Part shown: positions 30,986 through 36,177 of the stretch, in pieces
Layout: every line of letters begins with the position of its first letter
Position numbering within the stretch: the first letter of the stretch is position 1
Assembly (NCBI RefSeq): GCF_000280925.3
Contig: NZ_CP012109.1
Coordinates: forward strand, 7,274,501 to 7,338,500
From: Myxococcus hansupus
GTDB taxonomy: Bacteria; Myxococcota; Myxococcia; Myxococcales; Myxococcaceae
Direction: 5' to 3'
DNA length: 64,000 bases
Notes under the pieces: generated by a model
Told to the model about the DNA's origin: nothing
The model's database searches: none
Seen by the model: the letters and a program-made list of their open reading frames with translations, nothing else
Program-made: the position numbers and the translations under genes

Positions 30986-31825
30986 TCAGGGCCCGGCGTC
31001 TGGCAACGGGCCCTGGAGCTGGAATGTCTCCAGACGCGTCTGCGCCCCCGCGTCGCGGAGCCGCTGCACCAGCGGCGCGTCGTCCATCAGCGCGACATTC
31101 AGGGAGGACACGCCCTCCCCCATCCGGAGGAAGGCGTCCTCCAGCAGCGTCCGCGCATGCGCGGGTGACACGGCGAAGAAGGGGAACAGGGTGGGCCCGG
31201 AGGCGCGCAGGTCCATCATCCCCAGCCACTGGCGCCCGGGCGCCCGCGAGTCGACGAGCCCCAGCACCCGGTGCGACGCACGGGCCACGAAGCACGCCAG
31301 CTTGCCGGGCACCATCCGGAAGGCCTCCGTCAACGCGTCGCAGTCCTCTCGCGTCACCGGCACCAGGCGCCCCTCGGGTGACGCAGGGGGAAGCGCGTCC
31401 AGGTGCGCCCGCGTCACCCGCAGCGTGGTGGCCTCGCGCACCGGCCGCATGCCCAACGAGGTGTAGAGCGCGAGCGCGGGCACGTTGTCCCGCTTCACGT
31501 TGAGGCCCCAGCGGGCACACCCTTGTGCGCGCAGGTGCTCGGCCAGGTGCGCCATCATCGTCCGCCCCAGCCCCTTCCCTCGCGCGGACGGGGCCACCAC
31601 CAACTGGCTCACGTACCCGAAAGTCCCCAGGGACTCCGCCACGCCGTAGGCCTCAACACCCCGGGGGCCCTCCGCGAGCAGGGCGAGGGGCGCGAGCTCC
31701 GCCGCCCACATGGACTCAGGAGGTGGGGGGTCATCCACCCCGAGCTCCAAGAAGAGCCGGGCAAAGACGGCGTGGTCCTCCAACCGACCTGGACGCACCA
31801 CCCACGGCGATTCCGCGAAACCCAC
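30986..31825 (-). CDS. GNAT-family N-acetyltransferase
   Basis: 279 residues from GTG 31825, chosen because AAAGGGAG lies five bases upstream; the longer in-frame start at 31894 would run into the sRNA terminator. The GNAT core (about 10-140) shows the acetyl-CoA motif VVAPSARGKGLGRTMMAHL and the following NVKRDNVPALALYTSLGM. The second half is a less clear C-terminal domain. Substrate unknown. It lies just downstream of the pxr-like RNA, as in M. xanthus by recall. A ribosome reaching it would require its own message or read-through of the sRNA terminator. Confidence 0.88.
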   Translation of the reverse strand: MGFAESPWVVRPGRLEDHAVFARLFLELGVDDPPPPESMWAAELAPLALLAEGPRGVEAYGVAESLGTFGYVSQLVVAPSARGKGLGRTMMAHLAEHLRAQGCARWGLNVKRDNVPALALYTSLGMRPVREATTLRVTRAHLDALPPASPEGRLVPVTREDCDALTEAFRMVPGKLACFVARASHRVLGLVDSRAPGRQWLGMMDLRASGPTLFPFFAVSPAHARTLLEDAFLRMGEGVSSLNVALMDDAPLVQRLRDAGAQTRLETFQLQGPLPDAGP

Positions 31826-31868: not shown

Positions 31869-31990
31869 GAAAAGAAGGCAGCCCGACACCCCAAAGAGGT
31901 GCCGGGCCGCGGGTCTTCTCAAGGTGACTCACCGGAAGTGCTGAAGGGGTGGGGGGGAACCGCCTTCAGCCTCGCTTCGATGTGTCCCGC
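31869..31990 (-). ncRNA. pxr: Pxr-like small RNA
   Basis: The strand opposite to the reference shows three hairpins in a row. SL1 (31940-31970) has an 8-bp stem GCTGAAGG/CCTTCAGC and a loop holding exactly seven C (31951-31957). SL2 (31911-31939) is a small GGTG-AGT-CACC stem. SL3 (31878-31910) is a 13-bp stem with two G-U pairs followed by CTTCTTTTC, an intrinsic terminator. A sigma-54-type promoter lies just upstream. In M. xanthus, Pxr is a development-blocking sRNA whose activity was lost by a C-to-A change in a run of seven C in SL1, and it is flanked by a sigma-54 regulator and a GNAT gene; both agree. The predicted transcript is about 120 nt. Ends are predicted, not measured. Confidence 0.85.
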
Positions 31991-32000
31991 GTGTTCCTCT

Positions 32001-32016
32001 AGCAGTCGCCATGCCA
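32001..32016 (-). promoter_or_regulatory. sigma-54 (-24/-12) promoter of the sRNA
   Basis: Reads TGGCATGGCGACTGCT on the minus strand: GG at -24 and GC at -12 spaced by ten bases, close to the TGGCAC-N5-TTGC consensus. Transcription should start near 31990, just before the first sRNA hairpin. Confidence 0.75.
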
Positions 32017-32094: not shown

Positions 32095-32144
32095 TTTCAG
32101 TGCTGCAATGGGGTTTCAGATGTGAAAAAGCCGAGTGATTTCAG
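32095..32144 (-). promoter_or_regulatory. three CTGAAA repeats, possible activator sites
   Basis: CTGAAA occurs on the minus strand at 32095-32100, 32114-32119 and 32139-32144. These lie about 105-155 bp upstream of the predicted sRNA start, where sigma-54 activators usually bind. Site function is inferred. Confidence 0.35.
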
Positions 32145-32239: not shown

Positions 32240-33684
<1,445 letters not shown>

Positions 33685-33688
<4 letters not shown>

Positions 33689-36177
33689 GGGAAGGACGGA
33701 GGCTGCGACAGAGGCAGCCTGAAGGTGAAGGTGGTACCGCGACCCGGGATGCTGTCCACGGCGATTTCGCCCCGGTGCTCCTCGAGGATGCGCCTGACGA
33801 CGGCCAGGCCCAGGCCGGTGCCCTGGGCCTTGGTGGTGAAGAAGGGTTCAAAGACGCGGTGGAGCAGCTCGGCAGGGATGCCCGGGCCCTGGTCCACCAC
33901 GTCGATGCGAAGCTGCTCGCGCCCCGCATGGGCCTCGCGGCGCGCGCGCACCTGCACCAGCCCGCCCTGCGGCATGGACTGGATGGCGTTGACGGCCACG
34001 TTGACCAGCGCCTGCCGGATGAGGCGGCGGTCCATGGGCACCGGCGGCAACCCGGGCTCCACGTCGGACTGGATGAGGATGGAGCGGTCCGCCCCGCCGC
34101 CCTGCATGCGCGCCGCCTCCAGCGAGTCCTGGAGCACGCGCCCCAAGTCCTCCTGCTGGAGCACGGGGTCCCTGGGGCGCGTGTAGTCCAGCAGGTCCCC
34201 GACGATGCGGTTGAGCCGGTCGCTCTCCTCACCCAGGATGTCCAGCAGCATGGCCGCGTCCCCGCCGGGGACCAGCAGCCGGCGCAGCGACGCCACCGCG
34301 TTGAAGATGACGCCCAGCGGGTTGCGCACCTCGTGGGCGACAATCGCGGACAGCTCGCCCAGCGCGGCCAGCCGCTCCCGCTTCACCATCTCCGCGCGCG
34401 TGGCCGCCAGCTCCGCGTAGCTGGCCCACAGCGACTCGTACAGGCGCGCATTGGCGATGGACAGCGCGAGCTGGCCACACGTGGCCTCCGCCAGCTCAAT
34501 CAGCTCCGGCCCGAAGGCCCGCGGCCCGCGCGTGTCGTCCACCACCACCACGCCGATGAGCTCCTCGCGCGAGGTCAGCGGCAGCGCGAGAATCGCCTTC
34601 TCGTCGAAGCGGTGCGCGAGCTCCGAATTGAAGCCTCCCTCCGCCGTGGACACGTCTTCCACGGCGATGGGCCTGCGGTCCCGGGCCACGCGCGCCGTCA
34701 GCCCATCTCCGTGCAGCGGCAGGACCACGGTGCGGAAGAAGTCCCGGTGGGCAATGGACGCCGCGGCGCCGCGCAGCACCCGGGCGCTCTCGTCGTAGAG
34801 GAGGATGTAGCAGTTGGACACGTCCAACAGCCGGACGAGGAAGTCCGCCGCCACGTCCAGGATGCTCGACGTCTCCAGCACCCCCGACGTGGTGCGCGCG
34901 AGGTCCAGGAGCAGGCGCGTCTCCGAGAGCTGCCGCGCGGACTCCGTGCGCAGGCGGCGCTGCTCCAACAGCGAGACCAGCAGCTCCGACAACGTGCCCA
35001 GCAGTTGCAGGTCCCGCGCGTCGAAGGCGTGGCCCGGCGCGCGCAGCACCTGGAGCGCGCCGCACACCTCTCCGCCGCGCGTCAGACACACCACCGCGCC
35101 CGTCCCGAGCCTGCCGCCGGACAGCTCCGCCAGGGACGCCTCCTGCGCGGGCGAGGACAACGCGCCCTCCGCGCGGCCCACCAGCACGGCCGTGAGCCGC
35201 GCGGCGTCCGCCGACGCCTCCAGCCCCACATGGGACGACAGCGCCAGCGCGCCCTCTGGAGGCAGCGACACGTGCAGGGCCGCGGCGCTGGCCTGCAGCA
35301 GGGACGCGACGCGCGCCAGGAAGTCCTCCTGCGAGGGCGGCGAAGGCTGCGCGACGAAGCGCGCCACCTGCGCCACCGACTCCATCTCCCAGCGGCCGCG
35401 CGCGCTGTCCGCCTGCACCCGCGCGTCCGTCAGCGCGGCGCTCACCACCTTGGCGAAGAGCATCAGCACCGAGCCATGGTGCGGCGCCACCCAGTGGCCC
35501 GCCACCCACAGCACCTCGGTTTGAGGGCCGCCCACGGGCAGGTAGACGTGGCTGGGAGCGGAGTGCTCCGCGCCACCGAACACGGGCCGCCCGTCCGCGA
35601 GCGACTCCAGGCCCAGTTGAGCGTCCTCGGGGAGCTGCGCCCCGTCGCGGGCCACCAGCCCCTCCCCTTCCCAGCGCAGCAGGCGGGCCCGGAAGCCCGC
35701 GGCCTCCAACCCCTTCAGCGCGACGCGGCGCACCGCGTCCTCGGAGTGCGCGGAGACCAGCCCCGCGGAGGTCTCCACCAGCCGCTCGGCCACCGACATC
35801 TCCGGAGGCCGCCCCTCCGTGGGGATGCAGTTGAGCAGCAACGCGGAGCCGCCGCCCTCCAGCTCGAGCCGGGACGTGAGGACGGCCACCTCCCGCGTGA
35901 CGCCGTTGGCACACGGCACCTGGAACAACTGCGCGCTGGCGTCGAGCGGGGCGCCAGCCTCCACCCGCCGGTAGCGCTCGATGAGCCGGCTGCGGTCCTC
36001 CGGCTGGACGAAGTCCATGGCGGAGCGGCCTTCGACGTGCTCCCGCGCCAGGCCCACCATGGCGACGTACGCGTCGTTGGCGGCGAGCACGCGCCCGTCC
36101 GCCAACACCACCACGGGGTTGCGGAAAGGCTCGATGACGGTCCGAAGGTCCGCCTCGCTGTAGCGCTTGGTACTCAT
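33685..36177 (-). CDS. PAS/GAF hybrid sensor histidine kinase
   Basis: 830 residues, no membrane segment, so probably cytoplasmic. N-terminal PAS domain (about 10-120), a divergent GAF-like region (about 150-390), a clear GAF domain (about 420-570), then HisKA with phospho-His in AIVAHEVRNPLGV, and HATPase with N-box VNVAVNAIQSM, G1 VVDQGPGI and G2 GTGLGLAVV. It overlaps selB by four bases upstream and the regulator by four bases downstream. The signal is unknown; GAF and PAS domains suggest a small intracellular ligand or redox cue. Confidence 0.94.

Follow-up and report, generated by a model that had tools for sequence, protein, structure and literature searches.

A Pxr orthologue in a Myxococcus genome and a 5' stem predicted across the Pxr family

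An intact Pxr locus

The window analysed here, a 64-kb stretch of DNA, comes from a Myxococcus species close to M. xanthus, whose genome is a single contig of 9,490,432 bp and carries one copy of pxr, the gene of a small RNA (sRNA) reportedly first described in a 2010 paper. The gene lies on the minus strand at 31977-31870, where the window matches the Rfam Pxr family (RF01812) over model positions 1-109 of 109 with 125.8 bits (E 3.3e-22; gathering score 80); RF01812 is the sole Rfam family to reach its gathering score anywhere in the window. The genes around it are ordered as in M. xanthus: pxrK, pxrR, pxr and pxrA, then the convergent nuoN and nuoM. pxrK (33685..36177, minus strand) encodes a sensor histidine kinase (Pfam PAS, GAF, HisKA and HATPase_c; tblastn). 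pxrR, or nla19 (32240..33688, minus strand), encodes an NtrC-type response regulator with Pfam response regulator, sigma-54 activator and Fis HTH domains and is 96-97% identical to pxrR of M. xanthus-group loci. pxrA (30986..31825, minus strand), a GNAT acetyltransferase gene (Pfam PF00583), has its GTG start 44 nt after pxr. The position between pxrR and a nuo gene, with pxrK upstream, is the one that marks Pxr. Over its annotated 108 nt, the gene has 107 of 108 bases in common with M. xanthus pxr (as in locus L005); the single difference, a C-to-U change in the stem of the third hairpin (SL3), keeps a G-U pair.

A previous sequence-only reading had named the locus as Pxr-like, appealing to its hairpins and to M. 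xanthus-like gene neighbours. The full-length covariance-model match agrees with that identity, the neighbours (PxrK, PxrR, the GNAT gene, nuoN and nuoM) are all in place, and the similarity to M. xanthus pxr that the reading expected is borne out by the near-identity of the two genes. Judged by its sequence, the locus is Pxr, an intact and ordinary orthologue of the known sRNA. That the gene persists here with its expression or function lost is extremely improbable: the promoter, upstream palindromes, 5' stem, loop and terminator described below are all intact, and the only base change from M. xanthus preserves pairing in SL3. In M. xanthus, Pxr blocks fruiting-body development in rich medium, as do the M. 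stipitatus and Stigmatella alleles placed in M. xanthus (PMC5568312).

Predicted transcript and fold

A sigma-54 -24/-12 promoter, TGGCATGgcgaCTGCT, is found at 32001..32016 (minus strand), and 67 of 71 homologues have the same element. With +1 placed 12 nt past the G of the -12 GC, transcription is predicted to start near 31991, about 14 nt upstream of the annotated gene and close to the upper coordinate of 31990 given by the sequence-only reading. From this start to the terminator, the predicted primary transcript (31870..31991, minus strand) would be about 122 nt long; it contains the Rfam match, and its folding energy is -63.9 kcal/mol, whereas 200 dinucleotide shuffles average -45.1 +/- 3.9 kcal/mol, none being as stable (z -4.8). 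The first hairpin, SL1 (31936..31973, minus strand), follows from the Rfam structure and pair counts. SL3 (31872..31920, minus strand) is indicated by Rfam, fold and covariation as an intrinsic terminator with a conserved stem core (31910-31878) followed by CTTCTTTT, which matches the role that had been read for the third hairpin.

The middle of the molecule depends on where the 5' end is placed. The annotated 108 nt alone fold into SL1, SL2 and SL3, with an SL2 pair probability of about 0.99, so that the three hairpins in series described previously hold for the annotated gene. They do not hold for the promoter-predicted transcript, which folds into two hairpins: its mean pair probability is 0.001 for SL2 and 0.976 for an additional stem, P0, and three hairpins form only without the first 14 nt. 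The published gene and the Rfam model both begin at AAGCG (31977), and the deletion primer GV490 ends exactly before that position (PMC5684412). The M. xanthus RNA has a long form that is processed to Pxr-S in growing cells (PMC10217877, PMC5684412), and RNase D trims Pxr-XL to Pxr-L there, with a second nuclease presumed (PMC10217877). A measured Pxr 5' end may already exist in the literature.

A predicted 5' stem enclosing SL1

P0 pairs the 5' end of the predicted transcript, GGGAC-A-CAUCG, with CGGUG-A-GUC-A-CC just past SL1, thereby enclosing SL1. Its 5' arm, GGGACACATCG (31978..31988, minus strand), is upstream of the annotated gene, and its 3' arm, CGGTGAGTCACC (31923..31934, minus strand), overlaps the published SL2; fold, swap test and covariation point to both arms. 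When the predicted transcripts of 71 homologues are folded, the minimum-energy structure contains at least five P0 pairs in 70 of them, and the stem begins 0-5 nt past the predicted +1 in all 67 homologues (67/67) with a recognisable -24/-12 element, the promoter position being independent of folding.

An alignment-free swap test compared native with swapped arm pairs in 27 homologues whose arms are less than 75% alike. Native pairs reached -17.41 kcal/mol, against -13.64 +/- 0.61 kcal/mol for swapped ones (z -6.2; 0 of 20,000 permutations); in four controls, in which reversed or neighbouring segments were paired, z ranged from -1.9 to +1.2. On alignment A5 (76 copies, 71 distinct), P0 shows changes on both sides at 10 of 10 pairs, 92.2% of its cells pair, and its covariation is 0.733; shuffling gives 0.247 +/- 0.017, and sliding by 1-3 columns gives no more than 0.081. 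The published SL2 pairs in 65% on the same alignment, with a covariation of 0.248 against 0.207 +/- 0.024. A5 leans towards P0, since the model used to fit it includes that stem; the swap test is independent of A5. RNAalifold did not find P0 on A1, a plain MAFFT alignment that was not fitted, because the diverged P0 arms are misaligned there.

The functional RNA might instead be the 108-nt three-hairpin molecule, with the conserved 5' stretch being only initially transcribed promoter DNA of no structural role. The annotated gene does fold in that way by itself, published constructs (PMC5684412) and the Rfam model begin at 31977, and SL2 belongs to the fold used in published work. Every published complementation construct kept the M. 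xanthus 5' stretch (PMC5568312), and for that reason these constructs are no test of it. We nevertheless regard this reading as improbable: family-wide covariation links the 5' stretch to the SL2 region, and SL2 itself hardly covaries and is absent from most deep lineages. Comparison of about 95 genomes shows that nucleotides upstream of the published gene take part in a conserved extra stem, which the published picture does not include, and the published three-hairpin fold is probably not that of the full-length RNA.

P0 changes which mutants should be made, and in chimeras joined at the annotated start the two P0 arms come from different species. M. xanthus carrying either of two Cystobacter paralogues did not regain Pxr function (PMC5568312). 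To look for a reason, Archangium violaceum paralogues, one of them without its 3' end, were folded with the M. xanthus 5' arm; partial P0 stems still formed.

The seven-C loop

The tip of SL1, GGTTCCCCCCCACC (31948..31961, minus strand), carries a loop of exactly seven C (31957-31951), as the sequence-only reading had counted; in M. xanthus this loop is essential for function. A pattern search of 96 Myxococcaceae genomes, with two mismatches allowed anywhere, found the loop GGUUCCCCCCCACC identical in 78 of the 80 sites listed; one of the remainder has eight C and the other is GGTTTCCCCCCACC, a variant with the first C changed to U that recurs in further deep lineages in the covariance-model search. 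The GGU/ACC pairs that close the loop hardly vary and show no covariation, so the constraint is on the sequence itself, through either target pairing or a protein. For M. xanthus, an effect of a single-base loop change on development is already published (PMC5684412, PMC5568312): a C-to-A change abolishes function and leaves the RNA abundant (PMC5568312, PMC5684412).

Pairing of the invariant loop with G-rich stretches of target mRNA is the most likely reading. It is possible, if rather doubtful, that the seven C are bound by a protein, a chaperone or nuclease, and do not act as an mRNA-pairing seed. The near-invariance of the loop and its closing pairs would suit such a site; myxobacteria have no Hfq (PMC5684412), and some other partner is therefore expected; and a limited scan of six genomes yielded no conserved complementary mRNA site. 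However, an RNA that is abundant but inactive after the C-to-A change (PMC5568312) is explained by target recognition no less well than by stabilisation, and the first-C-to-U variant of the deep lineages could still form G-U pairs.

In that scan, complements of the loop (TGGGGGGGAA) numbered 3-26 per genome, pxr itself counted, with no excess over the reversed control in G034. The sites examined were mostly inside coding regions, and across the six genomes none was seen at a start codon common to several of them. The only perfect 12-nt complement in the host genome, GTGGGGGGGAAC at C1:2239615, falls in a short reading frame rich in G-runs (L096:1303-1578) with several other runs of G6-G7. It was set aside as a target because, by a rough estimate, chance alone would give a few such sites.

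PxrR and its candidate operator

Where PxrR is encoded next to pxr, the upstream region usually has one or two palindromes near TTKCAG-N2-CTGMAA. Here there are two predicted PxrR sites, an upstream palindrome, TTTCACATCTGAAA (32114..32127, minus strand), with three mismatches to the full palindrome, and a downstream one, TTGCAGCACTGAAA (32095..32108, minus strand), with one. Their positions in Myxococcus and most cultured relatives, counted from the loop, are about -166 and -147, a spacing of 19 bp. In several deep lineages, every copy has three mismatches. A PxrR orthologue is missing in six genomes of three lineages (G110-G112, with genomes of 2.1-2.7 Mb, and G103, G032 and G108), in which the best PxrR match is 44-49% identical; this is the level of a paralogue, since the second-best PxrR match in the host genome is at 49% (381 bits). 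All six PxrR-less genomes lack palindromes near -166/-147, and in G106 and G109 PxrR orthologues (70-73%) adjoin pxr. Because the palindromes are usually present with PxrR and missing without it, the tandem palindromes are likely to be the PxrR operator. Both halves of another inverted repeat, CACCTATG...CATAGGTG (window 32218-32211 and 32166-32159), occur here and in L020; the M. xanthus group retains one half, and the repeat is absent elsewhere. It was set aside as the operator because of its confinement to the M. xanthus subclade.

That Pxr is kept where PxrR is absent indicates that the RNA outlives its regulator, and we infer a role beyond fruiting in the small-genome lineage, which, from its small genomes alone, is unlikely to build fruiting bodies. 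In this lineage (G110-G112; L158-L160), pxr adjoins nuoN, a sigma-54-like element is kept, the best PxrR match is 46-48% and the loop is GGTTTCCCCCCACC. The G032 and G108 loci (L040 and L064) have no PxrR near pxr and no sigma-54 element; a sigma-70-like TTGTCA-N17-TATYTG is found upstream instead.

Range of Pxr and pxrA

With covariance model R1, which includes P0 and was used for the family survey, Pxr was found in 95 of 96 Myxococcaceae genomes and in none of 49 from the order's other families, the latter under stricter filters with which weak matches are lost. A pattern search of a genome contig collection returned 51 matches, of which 49 are genuine and all myxobacterial; the other two (L059 and L063) are chance matches without an SL1 stem or sigma-54 promoter. 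Viral contigs gave no Pxr match. One contig titled 'Comamonas sp. KCTC 72670' (L061, BNCN01000002.1) carries a Myxococcus pxr locus, with NuoN 98.7% identical to that of the window, and its title is therefore very likely wrong. Arrays of 4-5 pxr, each copy with its own sigma-54 element, occur in L031, L050, L131, L132, L133 and L148. Further paralogues with P0 and the same loop (L033:4147-4267, L034:4072-4192 and L156:1501-1626) have no PxrR or Nuo match in the surrounding stretch examined.

The downstream gene, pxrA, is the transcript most increased on pxr deletion in M. xanthus and has been placed in Myxococcus species only (PMC11928866). We found pxrA homologues with 48-56% identity after pxr in Archangium (L050, L128 and L148), Hyalangium (L079) and a MAG (L030), and detected none in the Corallococcus loci examined. 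Given these homologues outside Myxococcus, pxrA is probably older than its published range implies, with losses.

Discussion

We propose that PxrR, presumably activated through PxrK, would bind the tandem upstream palindromes and drive the sigma-54 promoter, giving an RNA of about 122 nt whose first nucleotide is about 14 nt upstream of the annotated start. Pairing of the 5' end with the region just past SL1 would make a long hairpin (P0 and SL1) that carries the invariant seven C in its terminal loop; the terminator hairpin would come next. Trimming to the active Pxr-S would block fruiting-body development in growing cells, as has been shown in M. xanthus. We hold this account as a whole with considerable confidence; family membership, P0 covariation, loop invariance, the promoter and the distribution are its computed parts.

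The 5' extension may hold the long form in the two-hairpin fold, and its loss would free GGUG...CACC for SL2; Pxr-L and Pxr-S could plausibly differ in structure by such a change from P0 to SL2. We infer this refolding, like the transcript ends, the operator and the targets. A bolder proposal, which we consider unlikely, is that Pxr is a conformational switch, in which removal of about 14 nt lets SL2 form and yields active Pxr-S, and that the RNA predates development control and has a wider role. If loss of the 5' nucleotides activates Pxr-S, the nutrient signal would act on P0 stability or cleavage; the greater age and breadth would follow from the retention of Pxr without PxrR in the lineages with 2.1-2.7 Mb genomes.

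Pxr gates a model case of bacterial multicellularity, and P0 offers a concrete hypothesis for the processing of Pxr-L to Pxr-S. Besides P0, the constancy of the loop, the distribution of Pxr across the family and its retention in genomes without PxrR add to what has been published. Direct handles on target, regulator and ancestral role come from the 14-nt loop with its near-invariant sequence, the predicted operator of PxrR and the lineages that lack PxrR. The value of the result lies in the revised structure and family-wide picture, not in the locus.

Some bacterial sRNAs, such as those of the RsaE type, have C-rich loops that pair with ribosome-binding sites. Like them, Pxr exposes a C-rich loop that could pair with G-rich mRNA; the similarity is one of working only, with no homology claimed, and Pxr itself is found only in Myxococcaceae. 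The tandem Pxr paralogues of Cystobacter and Archangium have the same loop, terminator, promoter and P0 as the gene described here, but occur as 2-5 copies in a row where this genome has one. With Pxr of M. xanthus (RF01812), the gene shares loop, terminator, sigma-54 promoter and the pxrK, pxrR, pxrA and nuo neighbours; compared with that RNA as published, the fold predicted here adds P0 and drops SL2 from the full-length molecule.
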